Shown here piece after piece: positions 15,945 through 35,878 of a stretch of 52,420 bases of DNA. The position numbers and the translations under genes were made by a program. The first letter of the stretch is position 1. Every line of letters begins with the position of its first letter. The notes beneath the pieces are model-generated. The model ran no database searches. It was given only the letters and a program-made list of their open reading frames with translations, and had not been told where the DNA came from. Source of the DNA: an uncultured bacterium (GTDB lineage: Bacteria > Krumholzibacteriota > Krumholzibacteriia > LZORAL124-64-63); NCBI GenBank assembly GCA_903912525.1, contig CAIWHK010000025.1, positions 200,881-253,300 on the forward strand, in the 5' to 3' direction.

Positions 15945-17099
15945 TCAGGGGATTACCGGGGGCGGTTCCCGATGGATATAGATGTAGTGCTCGCTGGAGA
16001 TGAAGCGACGCACCTGGCCGGTGCCGGGGGTCACGATGAAGACGTAGGCGGCATAGTCCACGTCATCGGCGCCGGTGCCCACGCGGATATCCACAAGGGC
16101 GAGCGAGGTGGGCGTCGGGCAACTGCCGGCGTCACCGAACTGCAGCAAATAGTGGCCATCGAGGGTGAAGACCCCGACACGGTTGTTGCCCGTGTCGGCG
16201 ACGAAAATGCGGCCGCTTCCGTCCACGCTGACGGCCGTCGGCGCGCGGAACAGGCCGGGGTCGCTGCTCGGGCCGCCGACCCAGTCAGTCTGCCCGCAGA
16301 TCGCCGCGTCGCCCAGAACGAAATCGGTGGCGGCGGGCGGCTCGCAGGTGACCTCGAACGTTACCGCAGTGCCGCGCAGCGGGGCGGCCTGGCCGGACGG
16401 AGCCGTATCCTCGAGGTCCGGCGTTGCGTCGAACCGGATGACCCAGTTGCGCAGCGTGTCGGCGTCACACACGACCATCTTGCCGGTCAAGTCCGTCGCC
16501 ATGCCCCACGCATCGTGCACCGAGCGCGCGCCGATACCCTCTGAGCGCGTCAGGATGCCGTGGGCCGATGGGCCGTTGAAGTCGTCGAACGCGTAGCGGT
16601 GAACGACCGCCGAGTCGGGGTCGGCCAGATAGACGAAGGCGCGCGCGTTCGGCACCTGTTCGATGCCGGCCAGGTTGGCAGCCAGGGCGCGGGCGCTCCC
16701 GACCGCAGGCAGGCTCGCCGAGCCCAGCGGCGCCAGGTCGGAAACCGAGAACCATTTCAGTTCATGCGTCCCCTGGTCCCACACGAACACGACCTGCCCG
16801 GCGGGATCGACGCACAGGGCCGTGGCATCGGTCAGGCCGCCGGCGCCGGCGATCTGGTTGTATTCGAGGTCACGCTTGATGAGCGAATCGGCCGACACCA
16901 CGAACAGGCCGCCGAGCGCCTGCGCGATCTGTCGGGCGCCGTCATCGGCGAATTGGTCGTCGTCCAGCCACGCGCTGACCGAGAACAGGCCCTCCGCGTG
17001 CGGTATGGCGATCTTCTCGCCGCAGCCCGCCGACAGCAACGCCATCAGGGCGCAGGCGGCAAGGGTGACCGAGGCGGCAACGGTACGGCGGCGGCTCAT
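15945..17099 (-). CDS. Lipoprotein with NHL-type repeats
   Basis: The 384-residue product carries a signal sequence ending in a lipobox (LLSAGC, Cys26), so it is a lipoprotein. A stretch near the C-terminus, FRAPTAVSVDGSGRIFVADT followed by GNNRV, is a clear NHL-repeat signature, and weaker repeats (DATALCVDPAGQVVFVWDQG, DAWGMATDLTGKMVVCDADT) precede it, suggesting a beta-propeller. Its ATG overlaps the stop of the PorV-like gene (ATGA, 17096-17099), making it the last gene of a five-gene coupled operon for envelope proteins. It may act as a surface-exposed binding partner of the secretion or receptor proteins encoded upstream. No enzymatic residues were recognised; its function is unknown. 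Confidence 0.8.
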   Translation of the reverse strand: MSRRRTVAASVTLAACALMALLSAGCGEKIAIPHAEGLFSVSAWLDDDQFADDGARQIAQALGGLFVVSADSLIKRDLEYNQIAGAGGLTDATALCVDPAGQVVFVWDQGTHELKWFSVSDLAPLGSASLPAVGSARALAANLAGIEQVPNARAFVYLADPDSAVVHRYAFDDFNGPSAHGILTRSEGIGARSVHDAWGMATDLTGKMVVCDADTLRNWVIRFDATPDLEDTAPSGQAAPLRGTAVTFEVTCEPPAATDFVLGDAAICGQTDWVGGPSSDPGLFRAPTAVSVDGSGRIFVADTGNNRVGVFTLDGHYLLQFGDAGSCPTPTSLALVDIRVGTGADDVDYAAYVFIVTPGTGQVRRFISSEHYIYIHREPPPVIP

Positions 17100-18151
17100 C
17101 GCAGCCTCCAGTCGTCAACAGCTGTATTGGGCCGGCGCCAAAGCGGCGAAACGTCCACGGAGACGTGGTGCACGGCACCGAAGCCGCCCATGTCGCCGTA
17201 GGCGTAATCGATGCGGATCTGCATCTGTCGGCGCTCGACCTGCACGCCGAAACCGGCCGCAAGGCCGCCCTCGGGGCGATTGGTCTCGAAACCCACGCGC
17301 AGGAACAGCTGCTTGCGCAGGCCCAGTTCGCTGCCCAGGCGGAAGCTCTCGGAATAGTCGGACGGGTGGTTGAAGTCCGCCGTCGTCAACAGGGTCACCT
17401 TCGGCAGGAGCTCCCAGGTCTTGGCCGCGCCGAACGCGCCGACCGTGGGAGCCGGGAAACTCTGGAAATCGGCCGCCGGCACATAGCCCTGCGGCGTGGC
17501 CGGGGGCTGGCCGCCCGGGTGCACATCGCCGCCGAAGTTCCGCACCGTGAATCCGATGCGCATGTCGCCGACGCCCACATAGTAGAGGATGCCGAGATCG
17601 GCCAGCAGCGCCCGCGTCTGGTAGGCGTCCAGGTTCTCCTGGAAGAACTTCACCGAAGCGCCGATCGAGAACCGGTCGGTCATCGCGCGCGCCAGGCTGC
17701 CGCCGACGAAGAACTGGTTGGCATTGAAGTACTGGCCGGTGCCCTCCTGGTGGAGTTCATCGGTGCGCAGGATGTCGCCCGAGCGCAGCGCGCCGAACAT
17801 GATCCCCTGCGCGAAGTTCTGGCCGCGGCGATGGTAGGCCGCGTAGTCCATGTTGATGTCCGCGGTCCAGGCCACGTGGCTGACGAAGAAGTTCTTACGC
17901 CCCGGCGTCCGCATGAGGCCTGCCGGGTTCCAGAAGATCGCCGAGCCGTCCGTCGCCAGCGCCGAATAGGCCTGCCCGAGGGCCACCGCGCGGGCGCCGA
18001 CGGGAATGCGCAGGAACTGGGCGCTGGAAGTGCCGGCGTTCTCGTCACCGAACAGGCGGATGACATCGCCGGCCCATGCCGGGGCAGCGCCCCACAGCAG
18101 GACGGCGGCCACTCCGGCCGCGAACAGGCGGCGTGCGCGCATCCTTACCAT
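17096..18151 (-). CDS. PorV/PorQ-family outer-membrane protein
   Basis: The 351-residue product has a signal peptide (cleavage likely after AWA) followed by the family-typical start SSAQFLRIPVGARAVALGQA, then YSALATDGSAIFWNPAGL, and a chain of amphipathic strands expected of an FadL-like barrel. In Bacteroidota, PorV shuttles proteins bearing C-terminal sorting domains from the type IX translocon to the attachment complex. That role is an analogy here. The ATG at 18151 lies inside the end of the receptor gene (ATGGTAA), and an alternative ATG sits at 18142. The gene ends with an ATGA overlap to the NHL lipoprotein. The first gene of the operon encodes a protein with a sorting-type C-terminus, which supports a link to export. 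Confidence 0.85.
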   Translation of the reverse strand: MVRMRARRLFAAGVAAVLLWGAAPAWAGDVIRLFGDENAGTSSAQFLRIPVGARAVALGQAYSALATDGSAIFWNPAGLMRTPGRKNFFVSHVAWTADINMDYAAYHRRGQNFAQGIMFGALRSGDILRTDELHQEGTGQYFNANQFFVGGSLARAMTDRFSIGASVKFFQENLDAYQTRALLADLGILYYVGVGDMRIGFTVRNFGGDVHPGGQPPATPQGYVPAADFQSFPAPTVGAFGAAKTWELLPKVTLLTTADFNHPSDYSESFRLGSELGLRKQLFLRVGFETNRPEGGLAAGFGVQVERRQMQIRIDYAYGDMGGFGAVHHVSVDVSPLWRRPNTAVDDWRLR

Positions 18152-21012
18152 GAGTAGCTCAACCCCCACTGGATCGTCAGCGGATCCTCGATGTAGCTGG
18201 GATCGACGATCTGCTTCGCGTAGATCTCGCTGTCGGTGTTGCCGGAGCCCTCGTTCGCGTTCTCGCGGGGATCAGACCAGCTCGGGTTGAAGTCGCCGAG
18301 CCGGTAACCTTCGCCGGACCAGGGATTCACCCGCCGGTAGTTCTTGTGGTTCAGCACGTTCCTCGCCTCGACCGACAGCGTCAGGCGGTCACGCTTGTGC
18401 AGCTTCCAGTACTTGCTGAACCGGAAGTTGATCGACGACTTGGTCGGCCCCGTCGAACTGTAGCGACTGCCCGTCAGGTAGTTGCTGGGACCAAGGTAGA
18501 TCATGGGCGTGTAGCGCTGGCCGGCTTCGGCCTGCCACAGCAGGTTCATGCTCCAGTTCGGCGGCAGGCGCCAACCGAGGATCTCGGGGCGATCCTTCTC
18601 GAATACGGAGAAGTCCGCGTTGAGGCTGACGGTCCACGGCTTGTCCCACAGCAGCGGCGAGCGCGTCAGGCTGGCCAGGTTCGCCGTCCCGTCATAGTTC
18701 TGCCCGAACGCAGCCTGCAGGTAGGCGGCGTCGGCATCGCTGTTGGTGCCCGTCGAACGCTGCAGTTCCAGGCTGCCCGAGCCGCTGAGCCACCGCGTCG
18801 TCCGCTTGGTGACCGAGATCTCGGCGCCAAGGCTGCGCGCGGAATCGCCGTTGAAGTAGCGCACCGGGTTGATCGTCTCGGTGCCCTCGTCGTTCGGGTC
18901 GGGCGTCTGCTCGGCCGAGATCTCCACCGCGTTCATCGTCACGCTCTTGGCGTAGCCGAAGATGTCGCGGTTGAAGAACGTGACGCCGGCGCTCCACAGC
19001 CCGCCGAACTCGTGCTGGATGCCCGTCTCGTATTCGACGGTGATCTTCGGGTCCAGGTTCGGGTTGCCGAGCAACTGCACCTTCGTGGCCGAGTTCGCCG
19101 TCAACTGCGGGTACACGTAGAGGAACCGCGGCCACTGGCTGAAGTGACCGTAGTTGAAGAAGAACTTGTCGCGCTCGGTCACCTTGAAGCTGAGGCCCAG
19201 CCGTGGCGACACGCGCGTCTTCCAGCTGCGGCCGAAGGCGCGGGACGTGGAGGCGTCGAACTCGGCCGACATGTCGTCGGTGATGAAGAGGTAGTCGTCC
19301 GGCCGCGACATGACGTCCTCGACCTCGCGGCCCGGCGCCCAGAAGTCGGCGCGTACGCCGGCGTTCAGGATCAGCCCGCGGTACTCCAGCTTGTCCTGGA
19401 AGTACGCGGCGCCGGTGATCGGGTGCGCGACGTAGATGTCCTCGCGAATGCCAAGCTTGCCCGAAGGCGGGCGCGACAGGCTGCTGGCCAGGTCGATCAG
19501 CTGGATTTCGGTCGCCGATGCGTCAATGCCTGTCTTGAACTCGTTGCCGCTACCGCCCATGAACGAATAGGCGCCCTTGAACGTGTACGACTCGGCGAAG
19601 TGGTCGTGCCAGCGGTCGGCGCTGCCTGTGCTGCCGTCGGTCGTCAGCCGGAACGGCTCGTAGGTCGAGTAATCGTCGTTGCCGTTGACGTTCGTATGCT
19701 GCCGCGTGAATGTGCGGCCCACGGTCACGTCGAACCACGACTTCTGGCCCAGAACCTGCCGATAGTATGCCTGCGTCAGGATGTTCTCGTTGGTGAACAC
19801 CAGGTACTTGTCGAGGCGGTCGATGAACTCGAGCGGGAAGCCCTCGCCCGCCAGGTCGAAGCCCTGGCTGATGCTGACGTTGCGGCTGACGTTGACGTTG
19901 AACTTCCGGTCATTGTCCAGATTCCACGTCCACTTGACCATCCCGTTCCAGTTGTTGTCCCCGCGCGGAGTCCAGAAGTTGCCCTTGTAGACGGGCGACT
20001 CGAGCTGGTTCTGGCGGCTGAACACGGGCAGGTAGCCGTCGGCGGTCTCGACCGAGCCGCTGGCCAGCATGTACTGGGTTCCCGGCAGGTTGATGCCGAG
20101 CTTGCGCAGGCCGGCCGACAGCGGATCGGGACCCGAGACCGAGGCCTTGAGGACGTCGGTGTTCTGCGATTCGCCGAAATTCGACCAGTTGCGCCAGTCG
20201 AGGTAGTCGTGCTTCGGCACCGTGTGGCCGAAGTAGTCGCGCTTGAGGCTCACGCGCGCCTCAAGGCGGTCGTTGCCTTCCTTGGTCGACACGTTGACGA
20301 CGCCGCTGACGGCCTGTCCGTACTCGGCGTTGAAGCCGCCGGTCAGCACTTCGATCTCGTTGATGATCGACGGGTCCATCTGGTAGCCGTAGCCGCCGCC
20401 GCCCAGGGGATCGTTCACCGAGACGCCGTCCACGACGAACATCGTGTCCTCGGCGCGGCCGCCGCGGATATGGATCTCGTTGTCCTGCATCGTCACGCCA
20501 GGCTGCAGCGCGATCATGTCGACCATCTGGTCGAGCGGGACGGCCTGCAGCTGCTGGGCGCTCATGTAGTGCGAGCTGCCGGTCTTCTCGACCTCGATGA
20601 TCTGGCGTTCGGCGGCGACCTCGTAGGTGTCCTGCAGGATCGCGTGGATCTCCAGGCGGAAATCCAGGTTGATCGTCTCGCCCGGATGCAGCGTGACCGT
20701 CTGCGAGCCCAGCGCGTACGAGATGTACGACGCCTTGACGTTGTAGGTGCCGGCTGGCAGGCCCCGGATCATGTACAGGCCGTCGGTGAAGGCCATCGTG
20801 CCGTAGTTGGTCCCGGCCAGGTAGATGTTGGTGTACGGCATGGTCTCGCCGCTCTCGGCGTCGTAGATGCGGCCGCGGATCATGCAGGGCGTCAGCGGAT
20901 CAACGGCCTGCGCGGGTTGCGCGGTCACGGGCTTCGTCTGGGCTACGGCGCGCGGCGCGACGCCCGCGCACCCGAGCAGGATGACGGCAAGCGCCAGGTG
21001 GCGGATCTTCAC
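18145..21012 (-). CDS. TonB-dependent receptor with carboxypeptidase-regulatory-like N-terminal domain
   Basis: The 955-residue protein starts with a signal peptide (VKIRHLALAVILLGCAGVAP as written in the genome, GTG start at 21012). A CarboxypepD_reg-like beta-sandwich (about residues 40-125: RGRIYDAESGETMPYTNIYL) precedes a plug domain with VPLDQMVDMIALQPGV, EIHIRGGRAEDTMFVVDGV and GFNAEYGQAVSGVVNVSTK. The remaining ~650 residues are strand-rich and end in an aromatic residue (SYSW), as in 22-strand outer-membrane barrels. It would import a substrate using TonB energy, but no TonB box was identified and no transport partner lies nearby. The GTG overlaps the stop of the upstream lipoprotein gene (GTGA), and the stop overlaps the PorV-like start. 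An open frame reaching 21207 inside the upstream gene was not used. Confidence 0.92.
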   Translation of the reverse strand: MKIRHLALAVILLGCAGVAPRAVAQTKPVTAQPAQAVDPLTPCMIRGRIYDAESGETMPYTNIYLAGTNYGTMAFTDGLYMIRGLPAGTYNVKASYISYALGSQTVTLHPGETINLDFRLEIHAILQDTYEVAAERQIIEVEKTGSSHYMSAQQLQAVPLDQMVDMIALQPGVTMQDNEIHIRGGRAEDTMFVVDGVSVNDPLGGGGYGYQMDPSIINEIEVLTGGFNAEYGQAVSGVVNVSTKEGNDRLEARVSLKRDYFGHTVPKHDYLDWRNWSNFGESQNTDVLKASVSGPDPLSAGLRKLGINLPGTQYMLASGSVETADGYLPVFSRQNQLESPVYKGNFWTPRGDNNWNGMVKWTWNLDNDRKFNVNVSRNVSISQGFDLAGEGFPLEFIDRLDKYLVFTNENILTQAYYRQVLGQKSWFDVTVGRTFTRQHTNVNGNDDYSTYEPFRLTTDGSTGSADRWHDHFAESYTFKGAYSFMGGSGNEFKTGIDASATEIQLIDLASSLSRPPSGKLGIREDIYVAHPITGAAYFQDKLEYRGLILNAGVRADFWAPGREVEDVMSRPDDYLFITDDMSAEFDASTSRAFGRSWKTRVSPRLGLSFKVTERDKFFFNYGHFSQWPRFLYVYPQLTANSATKVQLLGNPNLDPKITVEYETGIQHEFGGLWSAGVTFFNRDIFGYAKSVTMNAVEISAEQTPDPNDEGTETINPVRYFNGDSARSLGAEISVTKRTTRWLSGSGSLELQRSTGTNSDADAAYLQAAFGQNYDGTANLASLTRSPLLWDKPWTVSLNADFSVFEKDRPEILGWRLPPNWSMNLLWQAEAGQRYTPMIYLGPSNYLTGSRYSSTGPTKSSINFRFSKYWKLHKRDRLTLSVEARNVLNHKNYRRVNPWSGEGYRLGDFNPSWSDPRENANEGSGNTDSEIYAKQIVDPSYIEDPLTIQWGLSYSW

Positions 21013-22622
21013 GGCGTGACCACCCCCAGCTCGGTCGTCAGGATCCCGTGGAGCACGTCGGCAACGTGCGCCGGATTGAAGTTGTCGAGCTGCAGGCTCA
21101 GGCCGACCATGCGCGCCTGGCTCGACGTTGCGCGCGACGGCACGCGGATGCCGACGACGGGATCGTACGGCGGCAGCGGCCGGCGCGGGTCGCCGTAGCA
21201 CGTGCAACTTTCGAACTTGTAGAGTATCTCGTTGTCGGCCGTCGCAAGGCGGACCAGGCCCTGGCCGCCGGAAGTCACCGTTTTCGCCGTCATCATGTCC
21301 GCAAGCGCGCCGCTCTGGTGCAACACGAGCTTGTCTACCGGGTAGCGCAGCGGCGTGGCCGGCGCCGGCGTCGGGCTGACGCCCACGACCGCCTGCAGGA
21401 ACGCGACCGTCAGTCCGTTGGTCTGCCCCACGAACCCGCGGGACACGAAGAGGAAGCGCCCGGGCGTCGAACCATCGGTCGGCGACATGTACTGCTGCAG
21501 CACGCCGCCGGGAGCCGACGCCGTCCTGAGACTCAGGCTGCCGCTGCCGCCGTCGGTCCAGAATACCACCTGGAACTTGCGGAACGTCTCGAGCAGGACC
21601 GACGGGATGTCGGGAGCGCCGAACCAGAAATTGTACTGGTCCCAGCCTTCGACACCGAACCGCGCATCGAGGATCCCCTCAAAGAAGGCGCGCGAATCCG
21701 GGCTCATGCCGTCGCCGATGAACAGCACCGGACCCTTGGGCGCCCGCACTTCCCAGGTATAGCTGAAGTTCGCGTCCGAGAGCGCCTCGTCCCTCACGGA
21801 CACGCGCAGCGTACGGATGCCGGGCACCACATCCCTGACGAAGATCGAGAACTGCTTGATCTCGGCGGACGAGTTGAACGGGACCCGGACCCAGCAGGTG
21901 TTGGGATCGGCGGCCGGATCGTCGTAGTCCAGGGTGACCCCGGGATCGCCATCGGCCAGGGTGTAGCGGTAGAACTCGTCCATCGTCGGGGCCCCGTCGA
22001 GATCCAGCGCGAACATCCGGAAATTCATCGGGCCCCAGTTGAAGTACGTCGTATCGACGGCGGCGGACGGATTGGGCGTGATGTCGCCGTTCACGTCGTG
22101 GAATTCGCGCTGCAGGTTACGCAGCGGGTCGAAGTCGCTCTGGAAATTCACCGCCGGCGGGAAGTTCCGCAGCGGCACGTACTGCCGGAGCGTGTCGCTC
22201 AGCGTGCCCCGATCGTCGCGGCAGACCAGGAGGAACGTCGCCTGGGCGTTGCCCTCGTCATCGGGCTGGAACGTCATCGTCGTATCGGTGCGCAGGGTGG
22301 TGTCCCACGGGGCTTCCACTCCAGGCTGCGTCTGGACCGAGACGTAGAACTGTTTCACCCAGCCGTCGGCATCCGAGCCGCTCCAGCGGAAAGTGCGCCG
22401 GTAGTAGCTGGTCGGATTCAGGACACCGCCCGGATCCACCGGCCCGACGAACAGGCGGACGGTGGGCGGCTGGTTCGCCACCGACGACGGATCGAACGGC
22501 GGGTTGGCGGAACATCCCGCGATGATGGCCGCCGCCGCGCCGGCCATCGCCAGCGCCGAGGGCACGATCAGCCGCCAGGGGTACCGCGCCATGCGCGCAC
22601 GAGGGGCCACGGGATTCCTCAC
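21009..22622 (-). CDS. Lipoprotein of unknown function in the envelope operon
   Basis: The product is 537 residues from a GTG at 22622 that overlaps the preceding stop (GTGA). The N-terminus has a basic segment, a hydrophobic helix and a lipobox (IIAGCS, Cys37). Residues ~50-150 look like an Ig/fibronectin-like domain (NQPPTVRLFVGPVDPGG, RWSGSDADGWVKQFYV), and a similar domain around 170-310 precedes a region with GPVLFIGDGMSPDSRAFF that may be an alpha/beta domain. I recognise no enzyme motif. It lies between the sorting-domain protein and the TonB-dependent receptor and is coupled to both, so it likely works with them at the cell surface. An internal ATG at 22592 is an alternative start. 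Confidence 0.75.
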   Translation of the reverse strand: MRNPVAPRARMARYPWRLIVPSALAMAGAAAAIIAGCSANPPFDPSSVANQPPTVRLFVGPVDPGGVLNPTSYYRRTFRWSGSDADGWVKQFYVSVQTQPGVEAPWDTTLRTDTTMTFQPDDEGNAQATFLLVCRDDRGTLSDTLRQYVPLRNFPPAVNFQSDFDPLRNLQREFHDVNGDITPNPSAAVDTTYFNWGPMNFRMFALDLDGAPTMDEFYRYTLADGDPGVTLDYDDPAADPNTCWVRVPFNSSAEIKQFSIFVRDVVPGIRTLRVSVRDEALSDANFSYTWEVRAPKGPVLFIGDGMSPDSRAFFEGILDARFGVEGWDQYNFWFGAPDIPSVLLETFRKFQVVFWTDGGSGSLSLRTASAPGGVLQQYMSPTDGSTPGRFLFVSRGFVGQTNGLTVAFLQAVVGVSPTPAPATPLRYPVDKLVLHQSGALADMMTAKTVTSGGQGLVRLATADNEILYKFESCTCYGDPRRPLPPYDPVVGIRVPSRATSSQARMVGLSLQLDNFNPAHVADVLHGILTTELGVVTP

Positions 22623-24625
22623 TTGATGATCACCAGCTTCCCGCGTTGCACCTGGCCGGTCTCAAGATCCGTGACGACGTAGATATAGAGCCCGGACGCG
22701 ATGGCGCGCACCGGCTCGCTGATCAGGTCCCACGGCTCCTGGCCCGAATTCGGGTTGTCGTGTTCGATCGACTTGACCAGGTCGCCGGCCAGCGTGAACA
22801 CATCGATGCGGCTGCGGGCAGGCAATCCGGTGAACCAGATCTTGCGCCCGATCTCACTGACGCCGCTGGGCGTGTGCACATCGAACATCGACGCCGCGCG
22901 GTACGGGTTCGGATACACGCCGATACCGCCCTCCGACCAGTCCGAGGCGGCCGAACCCGGGTACACCAGGTTGGAGTTCTCGTTGAACCCGCTCTCGAAC
23001 TCAGGCAGGCCGTCCTCGATGTCCGGCGCGCTGAACGTCGTGACCGCATACCAGTAGGGCGACCCGTCCAGCAGGTCGGAGTCCACGAAACGGCGCCGGC
23101 CGTTCTCGCCCTTCGGCGGCAGCCCGGTGTCGAAGCCGATGCCGTCGATCTTGTCGAACTGCGCGACCAGGGTCGCCGTCCGGAAGGGATCGCCCGACAG
23201 CGACGTGCCCTGGTACCGATAGATCCGGTAACCCTGGAAGTCCTCGCGGCGGGTGATCAGGCTGATGTGGTGCTCGGGCGAGCGCAGCGGGCTGTCCACC
23301 GGCAGGACCTGGCCCTCGAGCGGGTCGCCCGGCGGGTAGAGCGAGTCGCCGGCAGCCCAGCCGATGACGACCGAATTGTTCTCGGTCCCGAACTCGAGGC
23401 GCGGCGAGGGAGGGCCGGACGGGATGGTGAACCCTTCGTCGAAGGCCACCTGTGCGACCTTGCTGTTGGAGAGCAGGCCCACGGAATCCGGCGCGGCCAC
23501 GACCGCAAACGTGATCGACAGCGTGTCGCCCGGCGCCCAGGTGGGGAACGGCCCGGTCGACATCATGCTCACCCAGTTGGAAGCCGCCGAGTAGTTGCCA
23601 TCCGGTGTATCGCCCACGTCGAATTCACCATTGGACATGAATTGGTACTTGCCGGGCATGACCTGCCCGGGGTTGTCCACGTTGTCGTACTGGTCGTCGC
23701 GCTCCGGCACGCCTTTGAAGCGCCACAGGTTGAACGAGACCGGGCGCCGCGACTCGACGGGGGCCGGCGAAATGCTGGTGCCGAGCAGGCGGACTCCGAC
23801 CCAACTGGTGGCCATGCCCTCGTCACCGTCGGCATCGTGCTCATACGACAGCCAGATGTTCGGGTCCGACGGGACCGTAAAGGCCGGATCGACAAGGCCG
23901 ACCGGACCGAAGGCGCCGTTCTGGCCGCCCCAGAAGTCCCACTTGTTGATGGCCTGGCCGTCGTACGGGTCCTTGAAATCGGTGTTGCCGACAGTCGTAT
24001 CGGTCCACAAACCCAGGTAGACGTCGCGCAACTCTCCGCCACTGACATTGATCAGGGAATAGTCGAGGATCACGAAGTCGTCGGCGAACGGGTTTCCCCA
24101 GGAAAGCACGCGCAACCGCACCTTGACGCCCAGCGGCACATGGTTGCCCGTCGTGAGCGACGTGTAGTCGTCGGAGAACAACTCGAACTGCTCGGTCGCC
24201 AGAGCCGCCGGGTTGTAGTTGTCCGCATTCTGGCTGTTGGACCAGAGCCGCAGGAAGTTCTCGGGGTTCGACGGATGTTCGCGATCGTAGAAATCCTTGA
24301 ACTCGCGGATATTGTCGCCCTCTTGGAGGCCGTTGGCATCCTGCGCGCCCGTCGACACGTGCAGGGAGCCGTCAAGGCCGCGCGCGCCGACCCAGATGCC
24401 GCCCCGGTAGATATGCTCCACACGGCTGTGGCGCGGGTACTCGCCCGACGGCAGGTTTCGATTGAAGAACGCATTGCCGAAGTAGCCGAGGTTGCTGACG
24501 CTCAGGCCAATCAACCCGGCGCTCGTGGTCATGTCCTTGAACACGGTAGCCATGGCCGACGTTGCCGAGACGCTCACCAGGAGCGCCACCGCAATGCGGA
24601 CGATGCGCGGGCGGAGAATGTTCAC
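22619..24625 (-). CDS. Secreted protein with C-terminal type-A sorting (FlgD-like) domain
   Basis: The 668-residue product begins at a GTG (24625) with GGAG seven bases upstream and has a signal peptide ending near SAMA. The large middle part is strand-rich and includes a fibronectin-like segment around residues 475-560 (EDFQGYRIYRYQG). The last ~95 residues form a typical sorting-type domain: GVYPNPYRAASMFDV, IWFTGLPARSRIDVFTLAGD, ending ASGLYIYVVTDLETG-QVQRGKLVIIK. Such C-termini mark cargo of the type IX secretion system in Bacteroidota and are widespread in other FCB phyla. It is the first gene of the coupled operon with the PorV-like protein and receptor. Open frame upstream to 24802 crosses the divergent promoter region and was rejected as a start. 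Confidence 0.82.
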   Translation of the reverse strand: MNILRPRIVRIAVALLVSVSATSAMATVFKDMTTSAGLIGLSVSNLGYFGNAFFNRNLPSGEYPRHSRVEHIYRGGIWVGARGLDGSLHVSTGAQDANGLQEGDNIREFKDFYDREHPSNPENFLRLWSNSQNADNYNPAALATEQFELFSDDYTSLTTGNHVPLGVKVRLRVLSWGNPFADDFVILDYSLINVSGGELRDVYLGLWTDTTVGNTDFKDPYDGQAINKWDFWGGQNGAFGPVGLVDPAFTVPSDPNIWLSYEHDADGDEGMATSWVGVRLLGTSISPAPVESRRPVSFNLWRFKGVPERDDQYDNVDNPGQVMPGKYQFMSNGEFDVGDTPDGNYSAASNWVSMMSTGPFPTWAPGDTLSITFAVVAAPDSVGLLSNSKVAQVAFDEGFTIPSGPPSPRLEFGTENNSVVIGWAAGDSLYPPGDPLEGQVLPVDSPLRSPEHHISLITRREDFQGYRIYRYQGTSLSGDPFRTATLVAQFDKIDGIGFDTGLPPKGENGRRRFVDSDLLDGSPYWYAVTTFSAPDIEDGLPEFESGFNENSNLVYPGSAASDWSEGGIGVYPNPYRAASMFDVHTPSGVSEIGRKIWFTGLPARSRIDVFTLAGDLVKSIEHDNPNSGQEPWDLISEPVRAIASGLYIYVVTDLETGQVQRGKLVIIK

Positions 24626-24843
24626 TGTCGACTCCGCGATCCCGGCAGCCCGGGCGGGGCAGCCGACCCGGGCGTGTGGGGACGCGGGGACCGGCGCGGT
24701 GAGCAAGCTTGCCGAAGCGCACCCACCGACAGAGATTGGATCCCGAACTCTTGATCCGGGGTAAGTCGGCCTAAGGTATCTTCCCGATTCCACTTCTGTC
24801 AATCCCGCCGGTGCGATGAGGCCGGGGAACAGGGAACCTGAAC
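24626..24843. promoter_or_regulatory. Divergent promoter region between the envelope operon and pabB
   Basis: This 218-bp gap separates two divergent operons and should contain both promoters. A small inverted repeat GGATC-N9-GATCC lies around 24738-24757, and TTGATC followed by the AT-rich TAAGGTAT at about 24770-24780 could be part of a plus-strand promoter. None of these matches is strong. Confidence 0.35.
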
Positions 24844-30225: not shown

Positions 30226-30310
30226 CGGAAGGATCTGGGTATCTAGGTCGTGCGCCAACACGATCACCTCGCTATGTCCGGTCTTTGGAGATCAATCCGT
30301 GGGGGGAAAA

Positions 30311-33300
30311 ATGAAGCGACACCTATCGCTCCTGCTGCTGACCCTGCTGACGGTAGCCGTGCTGGTTCCCAGCGCCGGCGCCGGCGTCGACAAGACGCGC
30401 CAGTGGGTGCCCGGCGAACTCATCGTGAAATTCAGTCCCGGCCTGAAGGCCGCGCAGAAGGCGACCATCATCCAGGGCCAGCAGGTCAAGGAATTCAAGA
30501 CCATCGGCTACGAGCACTGGAAGATCGGCAACAAGTCGGTCGAGGCAGCGGTAGCCGCCCTGGAGAAGAATCCCAATGTCGAGTTCGTCGAGCCGAACTA
30601 CCTGCTCTACGCGCTCGAAGCCCCCAACGACCCCAGCTACGGCATGCTGTGGGGCATGAACAACACGGGCCAGAACGACGGTGGCGGCACACCCGGCACC
30701 GTTGACGCGGATATCGACGCCCCCGAGGCGTGGAGCGTGTTCCACGGCTCCAACGCGGTGACCGTCGCGGTCATCGACACCGGCATCGACTACACGCACC
30801 CCGACCTGGCGGCCAACGCCTGGACCAACCCGGGCGAGATCGCCGGCAACGGCATCGACGATGACGCCAACGGCTACATCGACGACATCCACGGCTGGGA
30901 CTTCGCCAACGGCGACAACGACCCCATGGACGACAACGACCACGGCACGCATTGCTCCGGCACCATCGGCGGCGTCGGCAACAACGGCGTCGGCGTGGCG
31001 GGCGTGAACTGGAACGTCAAGATCATGGGCTGCAAGTTCCTGACGTCGGGCGGCTCCGGCTCGACGGCGAACGCCATCAGCTGCATCGAGTACGCGACCC
31101 TGATGGGCGTCGATGTGATGAGCAACTCCTGGGGCGGCGGCGGCTACGACGCGGCCCTCGAGGCGGCCATCATCGCCGCCAACGCCGCGGACATCTTCTT
31201 CATCGCGGCCGCCGGCAACGCGGGCACCGACACCGATGTGACGGCGAACTACCCGAGCTGCTACAACGTGCCGAACGTGATCGCGGTCCTGGCGACGAAC
31301 AACCGCGACCAGCGCGTTGTCGAGCCCGGCTGGTGGTCGTCCAACTACGGCGCCACCACCGTCGACATCGGCGCGCCCGGCCTGTACATCTACTCGACCA
31401 TCCCCGGCGCGGCCTACGACTCGTTCTCCGGCACCTCGATGGCCACCCCGCATGTCGCGGGCGCCATGGCGATGCTGCGCGGGCGCTTCCCGACCATCTC
31501 GGTGGCCGCCGGCAAGAACCTGCTGATGACCATCGGCAACGACCCCGTGCCGGCCCTGTCGGGCCTGTGCGTGACCGGCGCCCGGTTGAACCTGCTCAAG
31601 CTGATCGGCGATCCCGACGTCATCAACCCGGGCGCCGTCATCGACCTGGCGACGGGCGCGGCGACGTCCGACCGCCTGGCCCTGAGCTGGACGGCCCCCG
31701 GCGACGACGGCAGCGTCGGCACCGCCATGGGCTACGACGTCCGCTATGCGAGTTCGCCGATCGTCGACCAGGCCGGCTGGGACGCCGCCACGCCGGCGAC
31801 CGGTGAGCCGAATCCGTCGATCGCCGGCTCGGCCGAGACCATGCAGGTCACCGGCCTGACCCCGTCGACGACCTACTACTTCGCCATCCGCGCGCAGGAC
31901 GAGTACGGCAACCTCGGCGACCTGTCGAACAGCCCCTCGGGCTCGACGATGGCCCCGCCGGTCGTCGCGGTCAGCCCTGCCTCGCTGTCGGCCGCGCTGG
32001 CCAGCGGCGGCACGACCACCCAGACGCTGACGATCTCGAACTCGGGCGCCAGCGTGCTGGACTTCACGATCCCGAACCCGACCTTCATGGTTCCCGCCAA
32101 GGGCGCCGCGTCGGTCAGGCAGCACGAGTACATCGAGCTGGCCAAGGGCGAGATCGACACCCGTGTCGGCGACCCCGTCCTGTTCGGAGCCGGCGGCCCC
32201 GACGTGTTCGGCTACCGCTGGGCGGACAGTGACGCCGTGGGCGGCCCGGCCTACAACTTCATCGACATCTCGGGCCTCGGCACCGCGGTCACGCTGACCG
32301 ACGACTCGAACCTGGGACCGTTCCCGCTGGGCTTCACGTTCGGCTACTACGGCACCGACTTCACGACGTTCCGCATCGGCTCCAACGGCTTCGTGTCGTT
32401 CTCGTCGACGTCGACGTCCGTGACGAACTCGGCCCTGCCCGCGGTGGCGGCACCGGCCAACCTGCTGGCCATGTTCTGGGACGACCTGACCCCGAGCACC
32501 GGCAGCACGTACTACTACAACGACGGTACCCGCATGATCATCCAGTACTCCAACTGGATGAACTACGGCACCGGCGGCCCGTACACGATGCAGATGCACC
32601 TGTATCCGAGCGGGACCATCGAGTACCACTACCAGACGATGACCGGCGCCACGAACAGCGCGACGGTCGGCATCCAGAACGGTGACGGTACCGACGGCCT
32701 GACCGTGGCCTTCAACGCCACCTACGTGCACGACAACATGGCGGTCCGGTTCACGCGCATGCCGGCGTGGCTGACCGTGTCGCCGACCAGCGGCAGCGTG
32801 CCGGCGGGCGGCAGCCTGGACCTGAGCGTCGCCTACGACGCGACGGGCCTGTGCGGCAGCCACTTCGACGCGACCGTGCATGTGGTCAGCAACGACCCGA
32901 CGAACGCCAACGTGTCGGTGCCGGTGGGCCTGGACCTGACGGGCACGTCCGACATCGCGATCGTCCCGACCAGCCTGGCGTTCCCCGACACCTACGTGAC
33001 GGCTTCCGCGTCGATGAACCTGGCCGTGACGAACCTCGGCTGCGCAGACCTTGTGGTCTCGGGCCTGTCGTTCGACAACGGCGCCTTCACCAGCGCCCAG
33101 GCGCTGCCGCTGACGGTGCTGGCCGGCGCCACGCAGAACGTGGCGGTCGTCTTCACTCCCGGCGGGCCGGGGCTCACGAGCGGCCAGTTGACCGTGACGA
33201 GCAACGACCCCGACTCGGGAACGCTGCTGGTGCCGGTGTCCGGCACGGGCCTCGACTTCCCGAACATCGCTGTCAGCCCGGCTTCGCTGGCGCAGACGCT

Positions 33301-35878
33301 GCCCACCGGCGGCACGGCGACGCAGACGCTGACGATCACCAACAACGGCCTGGGCGCGCTGGGCTTCAGCATCCCCGACGCCGAGTACATCGCCGTGGTG
33401 GCCAAGGCCGCGGCTCCCAAGCCCGGCAGTGAGTACATCGACCTGGCCAAGGACGCCAAGGATCCGCGCGTGGGCGCCCCTGTGGTCCTGGGCTCGGGTG
33501 GACCGGACTCCTACGGCTACCGCTGGAAGGACAGCGACGAACTGGGCGGCCCGGCGTACAACTGGATCGAGATCTCGGCGATCGGGACCGCGATCCCGTT
33601 CACGGGCGACGACCAGAACCTCGGCGCCTTCAATATCGGGTTCAGCTTCCCGTTCTACGGCACCGACTTCACGTCGTTCCGGGCGAGCACGAACGGCTGG
33701 ATCAGCTTCACCAACACCACGACCGCGCTCAGCAACTACAACCTGCCGAGCACGAGCGCGCCCGAGAACCTGATCGCCGCCTTCTGGGACGACCTGGACC
33801 TCTCAGTGTCCGGTGACGCGTACTACCACTTCGACGGCACCCGCACGATCATCGAGTACACGGCCGTACCCCGCTACGCGAGCGGCGGCCCGTACACGTT
33901 CCAGATCCACCTCTATCCCAGCGGTCGGATCGAGCTCCATTACAAGACGATGGCCGGCACGCGCCTGAACGAAGCCACGATCGGCATCCAGAACGAGACG
34001 ATGGACGCGGGCCTCGCGCCGGTGTTCAACGCCGCGTACGTGCACGACAACATGGCGATCCGTTTCGAGGCGCAGATCCCCTGGCTGTCGGCGACCCCGA
34101 ATACGGGGACCATCGCCGCCGGCACTTCGGCCGATGTCACCGTCGGCTTCAACGCCGCCGGCCTCTGCGGCGACTCGTACAGCGCCAACCTGCACATCGT
34201 CAGCAACGACCCGGACAGCCCGGACGTGACCGTCCCGGTGACGCTGACCCTGCAGGGTTCGCCCGACGCGCTGGTGTCGCCGACGACCCTGGCCTTCGGG
34301 AACGTCTACGTGACGCAGAACGGTTCGCTCTCGACCAACGTGGCCAACGCCGGCTGTGCCGGCCTGCAGGTCACCGCGATCGCGATCGACAACCCGGTCT
34401 TCGCCAGTGCGCAGACCGTGCCGTTCAGCGTCGCTCCCGGCGCCTCGCAGGCGGTGGGCGTGACCTTCACGCCGGCAGCGGCCGGTGCGGTGACGGGCAC
34501 GATGACCCTGACGACCAACGACCCGCTGCACCCGACGCTGACCGTGGCGTTGACGGGCACGGGCGTGAACCCGGCCGGCATCGAAGTGACGCCGGCGGCG
34601 ATCACCGCCACCGTGCCGTCCAACCAGCAGCGGACGGCCACGATCCACGTCGTGAACAACGGCGCGGGTTCGCTGACCTACAGCGTGCCGTCGCCCGACC
34701 TGTACAGCAAGGCCATCGCGAATGCGCCGCCTGCCGTGCTGGCCGTGGACGGTCCGAAGGACGCCGAAGACAAGGAATCCGGCATTGCCCCGATGGGCAG
34801 CGGCGGCCCCGATGTCTTCGGTTACAGCTGGAAGGACAGCGATGCGGTTGGCGGCCCGGCGTTCAACTGGGTCGAAATTTCCTCGACCGGCACCGCGGCC
34901 CTGACCAGCGGTGACGACACGAACTCCGGTCCGTTCCCGATCGGGTTCACGTTCAACTACTACGGCACCCCGTACACGACCTTCCGGGTCTGCACGAACG
35001 GATTCCTGAGCTTCAGCAGCACCGCGACGACGTACAGCAACACGGCGTTGCCGTCGGCGAGCGCGCCGCTGAACATGCTGGCCCCGTTCTGGGACGACCT
35101 GAACCTGAACGCGGTCGGTTCCGGCGACATCTACTACCAGGTGGTCGGCGGCAACCTCGTCGTGCAGTTCAACAACGTGATGCGCTTCGGCACGACGATC
35201 CCGATGACGTTCGAAGTCATCCTGTCGCCGACCGGCGCCATCACGTACCAGTACCTCAACCTGAGCACCGCGCTCCTGACCAGCGCCACGGTGGGCATGC
35301 AGAACTCGACCGGCACGGTCGGCCTGCAGGTTGCGTACAACGCGGCCTACCTGCACAACAACCTGGCGATCCGGTTCTCGGCGCTGCCCCAGTGGGCCAC
35401 GGTCACCCCGACCAGCGGCACGCTGGCCGGCGGCGAAAGCGTGGACCTGACGGTGACGATGGACGCCACGGGCCTGGCCCTGGGCGTGCACACCGGGCAG
35501 GTGCGCATCCTGAGCAACGACCTGAGCAATCCCGTGGTCACCGTGCCCCTGACGATGACCGTGCAGGACTACACCTCGGGCGTCGGCAACGAACTGCCGA
35601 GCCTGCTGGCCCTGTCCCAGAACGTGCCGAACCCGTTCAACCCCAGCACGAAGATCAGCTTCGCCCTTCCGGCGCGCGGCCTGGTCGACCTGCGGGTGTT
35701 CGACGTGCGCGGCGCGCTGGTTCGCACCCTGGTGTCCGGCGACCTCGAGCCGGGCTTCCACGATTACACGTGGGAGGGCCGTTCGGACGACGGCGTCCAG
35801 GTGCCTTCGGGTGTGTACTTCTACCGCCTGCGGACCGCGACGGGTGACATCACCCGCAGCATGACGCTGGTCAAGTAG
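30311..35878 (+). CDS. Large secreted subtilisin-like (S8) protease with repeated modules and a C-terminal sorting domain
   Basis: The 1,855-residue product has a signal peptide (MKRHLSLLLLTLLTVAVLVP), an I9-like propeptide (about 30-100, GELIVKFSPG and VEFVEPNYLL), and a subtilisin domain (about 130-435) with the full triad: Asp156 (VIDTGID), His211 (HGTHCSG), Ser376 (SGTSMATPHVAG). A fibronectin type III domain (about 440-545) follows. Then three tandem ~435-residue units, each an Ig-like strand set, a nidogen-like module (GYRWADSDAVGGPAYN, FTFGYYGTDFTTFR, FWDDL, GIQN) and HYDIN/ASPM-like Ig domains; the third is shorter. Residues ~1765-1855 are a FlgD-like sorting domain (QNVPNPFNPSTKISFALP to MTLVK). 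It is probably secreted or cell-surface and degrades proteins. Start: GGGGGG-AAAA before ATG; a GTG at 30299 is possible. Confidence 0.95.
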   Translation: MKRHLSLLLLTLLTVAVLVPSAGAGVDKTRQWVPGELIVKFSPGLKAAQKATIIQGQQVKEFKTIGYEHWKIGNKSVEAAVAALEKNPNVEFVEPNYLLYALEAPNDPSYGMLWGMNNTGQNDGGGTPGTVDADIDAPEAWSVFHGSNAVTVAVIDTGIDYTHPDLAANAWTNPGEIAGNGIDDDANGYIDDIHGWDFANGDNDPMDDNDHGTHCSGTIGGVGNNGVGVAGVNWNVKIMGCKFLTSGGSGSTANAISCIEYATLMGVDVMSNSWGGGGYDAALEAAIIAANAADIFFIAAAGNAGTDTDVTANYPSCYNVPNVIAVLATNNRDQRVVEPGWWSSNYGATTVDIGAPGLYIYSTIPGAAYDSFSGTSMATPHVAGAMAMLRGRFPTISVAAGKNLLMTIGNDPVPALSGLCVTGARLNLLKLIGDPDVINPGAVIDLATGAATSDRLALSWTAPGDDGSVGTAMGYDVRYASSPIVDQAGWDAATPATGEPNPSIAGSAETMQVTGLTPSTTYYFAIRAQDEYGNLGDLSNSPSGSTMAPPVVAVSPASLSAALASGGTTTQTLTISNSGASVLDFTIPNPTFMVPAKGAASVRQHEYIELAKGEIDTRVGDPVLFGAGGPDVFGYRWADSDAVGGPAYNFIDISGLGTAVTLTDDSNLGPFPLGFTFGYYGTDFTTFRIGSNGFVSFSSTSTSVTNSALPAVAAPANLLAMFWDDLTPSTGSTYYYNDGTRMIIQYSNWMNYGTGGPYTMQMHLYPSGTIEYHYQTMTGATNSATVGIQNGDGTDGLTVAFNATYVHDNMAVRFTRMPAWLTVSPTSGSVPAGGSLDLSVAYDATGLCGSHFDATVHVVSNDPTNANVSVPVGLDLTGTSDIAIVPTSLAFPDTYVTASASMNLAVTNLGCADLVVSGLSFDNGAFTSAQALPLTVLAGATQNVAVVFTPGGPGLTSGQLTVTSNDPDSGTLLVPVSGTGLDFPNIAVSPASLAQTLPTGGTATQTLTITNNGLGALGFSIPDAEYIAVVAKAAAPKPGSEYIDLAKDAKDPRVGAPVVLGSGGPDSYGYRWKDSDELGGPAYNWIEISAIGTAIPFTGDDQNLGAFNIGFSFPFYGTDFTSFRASTNGWISFTNTTTALSNYNLPSTSAPENLIAAFWDDLDLSVSGDAYYHFDGTRTIIEYTAVPRYASGGPYTFQIHLYPSGRIELHYKTMAGTRLNEATIGIQNETMDAGLAPVFNAAYVHDNMAIRFEAQIPWLSATPNTGTIAAGTSADVTVGFNAAGLCGDSYSANLHIVSNDPDSPDVTVPVTLTLQGSPDALVSPTTLAFGNVYVTQNGSLSTNVANAGCAGLQVTAIAIDNPVFASAQTVPFSVAPGASQAVGVTFTPAAAGAVTGTMTLTTNDPLHPTLTVALTGTGVNPAGIEVTPAAITATVPSNQQRTATIHVVNNGAGSLTYSVPSPDLYSKAIANAPPAVLAVDGPKDAEDKESGIAPMGSGGPDVFGYSWKDSDAVGGPAFNWVEISSTGTAALTSGDDTNSGPFPIGFTFNYYGTPYTTFRVCTNGFLSFSSTATTYSNTALPSASAPLNMLAPFWDDLNLNAVGSGDIYYQVVGGNLVVQFNNVMRFGTTIPMTFEVILSPTGAITYQYLNLSTALLTSATVGMQNSTGTVGLQVAYNAAYLHNNLAIRFSALPQWATVTPTSGTLAGGESVDLTVTMDATGLALGVHTGQVRILSNDLSNPVVTVPLTMTVQDYTSGVGNELPSLLALSQNVPNPFNPSTKISFALPARGLVDLRVFDVRGALVRTLVSGDLEPGFHDYTWEGRSDDGVQVPSGVYFYRLRTATGDITRSMTLVK
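31952..35580 (+). repeat. Three tandem ~1.3-kb coding repeats inside the S8 protease gene
   Basis: Units start near 31952, 33259 and 34571; the first two are about 1,310 bp, the third about 1,010 bp. Matching anchors are GGPDVFGYRWADSDAVGGPA, GGPDSYGYRWKDSDELGGPA and GGPDVFGYSWKDSDAVGGPA. The DNA is diverged but clearly related. Confidence 0.85.

Follow-up and report, generated by a model that had tools for sequence, protein, structure and literature searches.

Gene content and organization of the cluster

The window analysed here is a 52,420-nucleotide stretch of contig CAIWHK010000025.1 (positions 200,881 to 253,300, forward strand) from an uncultured bacterium of the Krumholzibacteriota, whose assembly comprises 4.29 Mb in 72 contigs. 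Between positions 15945 and 24625 it carries five consecutive, overlapping open frames (g1 to g5), all on the minus strand, encoding a probable exported cargo, a lipoprotein, a TonB-dependent receptor, a PorV/PorQ-family outer-membrane barrel and an NHL-repeat lipoprotein (Table 1). The original prediction had described five coupled genes in a host outside the well-studied Bacteroidota, and the frames, the sequences of all four overlaps and the position of the host agree with that description. Three of its genes, those for receptor, tailed cargo and PorV-family barrel, make up a core that is ancient and widespread in the Fibrobacterota-Chlorobiota-Bacteroidota (FCB) group, and of which the present cluster is one form. 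Neither this core nor its spread figured in the original prediction.

Table 1. Features of the five-gene cluster, with positions counted from the first letter of the window.
Feature	Position	Strand	Remarks
g1, exported cargo	22619..24625	-	668 aa from GTG 24625; predicted signal peptide and C-terminal sorting-type domain
g1 C-terminal domain, module-type tail	22622..22921	-	last 100 residues, ending GKLVIIK
g2, lipoprotein	21009..22622	-	IAGC lipobox, read by eye; Cys nearly invariant
g2 N-terminal Ig/FnIII-like domain	22158..22475	-	VIA Z about 8-9, model residues 40-145 (low-confidence model region)
g2 C-terminal alpha/beta domain, class I amidotransferase / ThuA-like fold	21012..21737	-	structure model and VIA
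g3, TonB-dependent receptor	18145..21012	-	N-terminal carboxypeptidase-regulatory-like domain and Plug
g3 Plug domain PF07715	20299..20583	-	E 5.9e-13; 49.7 bits against a cut-off of 23.9
g4, PorV/PorQ-family outer-membrane barrel	17096..18151	-	NF033709 match
g5, NHL-repeat lipoprotein	15945..17099	-	LSAGC lipobox, read by eye; NHL repeat 4.4e-8
g1-g2 overlap GTGA	22619..22622	-	start at -4 in 15/15 related loci
g2-g3 overlap GTGA	21009..21012	-	start at -4 in 15/15 related loci
g3-g4 overlap ATGGTAA	18145..18151	-	start at -7 in 15/15 related loci
g4-g5 overlap ATGA	17096..17099	-	start at -4 in 13/15 related loci; other two at -1

The start codons represent a choice among in-frame candidates, with an in-frame TTG at 24802 being a possible earlier start of g1. 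The four gene overlaps are nevertheless real and conserved, because the -4 and -7 starts recur in the related loci; of 101 other pairs of adjacent same-strand genes in the genome, 15 would allow a -4 start. Translational coupling of the five genes is plausible from this arrangement; the fixed proportion of products put forward in the original prediction is a conjecture. For g2, a non-overlapping start at GTG 22610, situated behind GAGGA, was considered and is disfavoured, the -4 start being present in 15/15 relatives. A scan for promoters and terminators revealed no excess over shuffled sequences.

Conservation of the five-gene unit in related genomes

The gene order, whose conservation in related genomes had been named as a check on the original prediction, is kept in all 16 orthologous loci as far as the contigs reach. 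It is complete on one strand, as g1-g2-g3-g4-g5, in 13 of the 16, with the remaining three retaining it up to a contig end. Full-length g1 orthologues occur in 15/17 genomes of family f1, the own genome counted, and a wider search with g1 gave matches at E <= 1e-30 in 38 of 80 genomes.

Within f1 the order by itself proves little, because the flanking genes (adenosine-deaminase-like, nucleoside-kinase-like and triosephosphate-isomerase-like, as judged by eye) are also conserved there, and slow rearrangement could preserve such a neighbourhood without any joint function of its members. This explanation is very improbable. The flanking genes are absent beside the cluster in two f5 loci (L077, L078), where the five genes still stand together, and a third locus (L079) likewise has no flank match while keeping all five families. 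The same five families appear in a rotated order, g3-g4-g5-g1-g2, in three f2/f4 loci, with profile hidden Markov model (HMM) scores of 80, 58 and 34 bits for g2 and 47, 31 and 21 bits for g5. The persistence of the overlaps, together with the recurrence of the core in other phyla and as paralogues, argues further against mere neighbourhood. The five genes behave as one unit, the rotated order in other families included.

A locus of family f3 (L117:663-17062) has genes for a cargo, for proteins of the g2-like and NHL kinds and for a barrel with a faint likeness to the receptor (24 bits), possibly representing a further form of the module.

A wider core of receptor, cargo and barrel

The same genome has receptor, tailed cargo and PorV-family barrel clustered at two further sites, on contigs C6 and C7. 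As there are 11 barrel matches and 11 plug matches in the 4.29 Mb, the probability that three pairs lie within 7 kb by chance is ~0.008. Receptor, cargo and barrel also stand together in 12 of 20 paralogous cargo loci of relatives, these 20 being drawn from about 40 clusters. Distant FCB loci, found by g1 alone, display the receptor-cargo-barrel arrangement in 10/14, with the other four cut by contig ends. The record titles of the distant loci name Stahlbacteria, Calditrichota, Ignavibacteria, Melioribacteraceae, Neomarinimicrobiota, a Bacteroidetes metagenome-assembled genome and others. Arrangement within the core varies: in type I modules the barrel lies directly after the cargo, and in the window form g3 precedes g4.

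Tandem runs of several cargo paralogues are found in relatives (L126:2542-8046; G007:C41:27628-36791; G011:C40:4580-10873), and a CBM9-matching protein is encoded upstream of the C7 receptor.

Affinities of the barrel and the receptor

The original prediction had called g4 a PorV-like shuttle. Its membership of the PorV/PorQ family stands, with 169.4 bits against NF033709 (cut-off 90, passed) and a match to the PorV chain 6h3i_F in the PDB at E 1.5e-4, while the label itself needs refining. Among the three named subfamilies the PorQ model NF033711 is nearest (105.4 bits, under its cut-off of 220); the PorV model NF033710 gives 53.6 bits, under its cut-off of 250. The PorQ model outscores the PorV model in 12/13 module barrels, the exception being L095, and the reverse holds in 11/11 core PorVs. 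The tree built from 74 barrels has a branch of support 95 with every module barrel on the same side, and a branch of support 99 with the PorU-linked PorVs on the same side, the linkage being based on a PorU-like tail just upstream of 21/26 core PorVs. The module barrel therefore sits apart from PorU-linked PorV on the tree and closer to the PorQ model.

A tree of 44 receptor rows recovers the module groups as in the barrel tree: one joins the window type to the rotated type, another is formed by the Krumholzibacteriota type I, and a third unites the other phyla with the C7 copy of the same genome. Receptor and barrel share one history. The barrel, receptor and tail trees are quick constructions, and their long branches (L106, L079, L164) are flagged.

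The carboxypeptidase-regulatory-like domain of g3 (CarboxypepD_reg) matches at 1.6e-14, and the protein as a whole lies under every NCBIfam receptor cut-off. Neither the SusC-type model TIGR04056 nor a SusD model is among the Pfam and NCBIfam matches of the five proteins. ExbB, ExbD and TonB (TonB_C) are encoded in the genome at L111. A frame near these genes (L111:9172-10740) combines a PorV-like stretch (residues ~109-406) with a FlgD_ig tail (429-491), and is perhaps a barrel with a sorting-type domain.

The C-terminal tail of the cargo

The tail is better conserved than the body of g1 (0.66 vs 0.56). The original prediction had given g1 a sorting C-terminus, a claim that the general model of type IX secretion system (T9SS) type A sorting domains, TIGR04183, does not recover (14.2 bits, cut-off 23) and that a tail HMM built from relatives does. 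Trained on other phyla only, this HMM assigns 68.6 bits to the g1 tail, with none of 28 ordinary tails from the same genome scoring above 29.0, two of the original 30 having been dropped for a wrong reading frame (L029, L036). The 43 module-type tails that were not used to train it all reach between 37.9 and 115 bits. The highest TIGR04183 score among the related module tails tested is 23.4 (L077). Reading the g1 tail as a sorting domain relies on this comparison with relatives, since the general type A model is insufficient by itself.

Against NF052228, the model of T9SS PorZ, g1 scores 19 bits, in the C-terminal domain only and under the cut-off of 260. The PorZ model outscores the type A model in 11/13 module tails, with exceptions by 0.1 bits (L101) and 1.9 bits (L077), and the reverse is seen in 10/10 ordinary tails. 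On these scores, the g1 tail belongs to a class separate from the common type A tails and appears to lean towards PorZ. The tail tree agrees in outline with the receptor and barrel trees. Searching PDB sequences with the g1 and g2 profiles returned chance matches only.

A relationship of the module tails to the retained tail of PorU, suggested by a GKLV-I run in which either can end, was also considered and rejected: 21 PorU tails (5/26 PorV loci were left out, having no readable PorU tail) score 8-24 bits with the module HMM versus 29-54 with the ordinary-tail HMM. PorU tails are retained in Porphyromonas as well.

The lipoproteins

No Pfam or NCBIfam match is obtained for g2. Its structure model reaches a predicted local distance difference test (pLDDT) of 65-84 over residues 281-400, except for one block at 55, and is lower after residue 440. 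Structural comparison of the C-terminal domain by VIA gives Z values of 11.9 to both 1i7q_B and the ThuA-like protein 4pxy_A and 11.7 to 8aa2_G of the levan utilisome, with alignments of about 180-205 residues and root-mean-square deviations of 3.4-3.7; amidotransferases lie in the same range, at Z 11-12. Chain G of 8aa2 is, judging from its length and residue range, probably the levan utilisome glycan-binding protein. The surface glycan-binding protein (SGBP) of that utilisome is described as two immunoglobulin (Ig)-like domains followed by a ThuA-like C-terminal domain (PMC7618045). The model suggests that g2 resembles this protein in fold, and for glycan binding the likeness is one of fold only. 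Foldseek searches with g2 returned fibronectin type III (FnIII) tandem domains in the top rows with very low TM-scores and are not relied on.

In g5, one NHL repeat exceeds the cut-off. Its lipobox is read in the window; in relatives, several open frames extend upstream and the lipobox is not traceable there.

Type IX secretion in the host and its relatives

The host encodes SprA (TIGR04189, 492 bits, cut-off 200) and the sortase PorU (NF033707, 464 bits, cut-off 420), with the PorV of the latter directly after it. This PorU-linked core PorV is a separate gene (L107:9792-10883), itself under the NF033710 cut-off of 250. The original prediction had pointed to SprA/Sov, PorU and GldKLMN; the first two are thus present, while GldM and GldN gave no match at E <= 10. 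The latter is a weak test, GldN being silent in the control genomes and GldM appearing below cut-off only, in unrelated ones, and GldK and GldL were not searched. Absence of GldM and GldN is not established because the control genomes gave nothing above cut-off. The 4.3 Mb host genome (G000), in which GldM was not detected, contains 139 type A sorting-tail matches at E <= 0.01. SprA exceeds its cut-off in 13/13 distant module genomes tested, and an SprA_N match is found in 25/28 near relatives.

At L107:5308-14508 (G000:C28), three genes in a row encode PorU, the core PorV and an M6-like protein whose tail is of type A, representing a PorU-PorV linkage outside the Bacteroidota.

The presence of PorU and a core PorV in the genome would suit a reading in which g1 is an ordinary T9SS client with a private shuttle, g4 carrying it from SprA to PorU, where its tail is cut, and the receptor and lipoproteins being simply co-regulated. 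Such an arrangement would be the type A counterpart of the type B cargo and PorP/SprF pairs; type B cargos often have their shuttle gene directly downstream (PMC12618676), and type I modules likewise place the barrel right behind the cargo. We regard this reading as unlikely, given that the tail class is distinct and PorZ-like, that the tail is the best-conserved part of g1, that the gene before g4 in the window form is the receptor and not the cargo, and that receptor and barrel have one shared history.

An export machine, in which g3 helps to secrete g1 or another protein, is a further alternative. Its model is Oar, a receptor with CarboxypepD_reg and Plug domains that serves the export of PopC in Myxococcus xanthus (PMC6434023), and g3 has the same layout, the likeness lying also in a receptor tied to a secreted protein. 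Undetected GldM and GldN, weak as that test is, make another energy source for secretion conceivable, and one relative (G014) carries the cluster without an SprA_N match. Yet SprA is encoded by the host and by all distant module genomes tested, with SprA_N in most near relatives; receptors in general often have the architecture of Oar, and the fold of g2 points to surface ligand binding. M. xanthus, moreover, differs in having no T9SS, and no PorV-family partner is mentioned in the passages on Oar and PopC (PMC6434023). Export is a live rival to uptake, and we consider it quite unlikely.

Proposed working of the module

The reading that we prefer, at a probability of roughly 45%, is that the five products form a single complex on the surface of the outer membrane, centred on the TonB-dependent receptor, with g1 delivered by the T9SS and kept on its own PorQ-like barrel. 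In this scheme g1 would cross the inner membrane via its signal peptide and the outer membrane via the SprA translocon of the host. Its C-terminal domain would then be caught by the PorQ-like barrel g4 and held there uncut, as PorZ is in Porphyromonas, so that g1 would stand outside the cell as a subunit next to the receptor g3. The two lipoproteins, g2 (Ig/FnIII-like and ThuA-like) and g5 (NHL propeller-type), may supply ligand binding or a lid, and TonB-ExbB-ExbD would drive import of the ligand, perhaps a glycan. The genes with their conserved order and overlaps, the three-gene core, the concordant receptor and barrel trees, the separate tail class and the presence of SprA, PorU, core PorV and the Ton system are computational findings; formation of the complex, retention of g1 on g4 and uptake as the direction of transport are inferred.

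Several observations weigh against it. In eight of the 20 paralogous cargo loci, one of them at a contig edge, the cargo has no receptor and barrel beside it. Module scores against the PorQ and PorZ models remain far under the cut-offs (220 and 260), none reaching them, and PorU tails group by score with the ordinary tails, away from the module tails. A distance comparison over 15 genomes reveals no specific coevolution of tail and barrel, with a tail-barrel correlation of 0.53 (given core PorV) compared with 0.57 for tail-body and 0.77 for body-barrel. The predicted structure of g1, based on 10 orthologues, has a pLDDT of 46.8, too low for use in a fold search. Folds of the class I amidotransferase type are common, and the Z values of g2 tie between enzymes, the ThuA-like protein and 8aa2_G. 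The receptor g3 shares its domain set (CarboxypepD_reg and Plug) with Oar, on which protein export depends. Finally, G014 (L068), a 96% complete genome, holds the whole five-gene cluster without an SprA_N match, which may reflect an assembly gap or a diverged SprA, the only explanations we offer.

Extended across the superphylum, the proposed complex would exemplify a class of TonB-dependent uptake complexes in which an extracellular T9SS client sits permanently on its own PorQ-like barrel, with PorQ-PorZ as a specialised relative of an older, general pair of cargo and barrel. This extension is tentative, and we hold it to be somewhat doubtful.

Relation to known systems

PorQ-PorZ of Porphyromonas gingivalis is alike in joining a PorV/PorQ-family barrel to a surface protein with an uncleaved C-terminal domain, and provides the nearest HMMs for the module barrel and tail. 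PorZ keeps its C-terminal domain, which PorU does not cleave, and acts with PorQ in the attachment complex (PMC8545088). The module differs in having no known anionic lipopolysaccharide (A-LPS) or sortase partner, in scoring under the equivalog cut-offs, in being encoded with a TonB-dependent receptor, and in the lack of recognised propeller domains in g1.

Among tested cases, the type B pairs, whose cargo and barrel genes are often adjacent, come closest to a barrel that serves a single cargo. In SprB-SprF and PG1035-PorP, a 14-strand FadL-type barrel of the PorP/SprF kind is often encoded beside the cargo and can serve as its surface anchor (PMC9143113, PMC12618676). PorV is described as the partner that every type A cargo uses (PMC12618676). 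Unlike the type B pairs, the module has a barrel of the PorV/PorQ family, a tail related to type A and a TonB-dependent receptor within the unit.

The SusCD levan utilisome also combines a TonB-dependent receptor with surface lipoproteins, and the Ig-like and ThuA-like layout of g2 is that of SGBPlev; the five genes, however, include no SusD or glycoside hydrolase, and the large surface subunit of the module carries a T9SS-type tail. BtuG is a propeller, and g5 is an NHL lipoprotein, BtuB-BtuG being a precedent for a lipoprotein lid on a receptor. In BtuB-BtuG, the receptor is capped by a surface lipoprotein lid (PMC10404256).

Taken singly, the parts of the module all fall into known classes; what appears to be new is their union in one module, how widely it is spread and its leaning towards PorQ and PorZ. 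Among open-licence papers, no title or abstract opening was found that describes the module, which is a weak negative. T9SS and TonB-dependent uptake are usually studied separately, and the proposed complex, if correct, would link secretion with uptake. It would also mean that dedicated barrels exist on the PorV/PorQ branch too, suggesting an origin for PorQ and PorZ. The hosts are mostly uncultured, making gene order one of few guides to their surface biology.

Additional observations

At L114:5189-12727, a weak PorV-family protein has as neighbours a second barrel and a protein that gives a ComEA-like match, a different arrangement from those described above. In the window itself, positions 30299-35878 on the plus strand encode a 1859-residue protein with an ordinary sorting-type tail.

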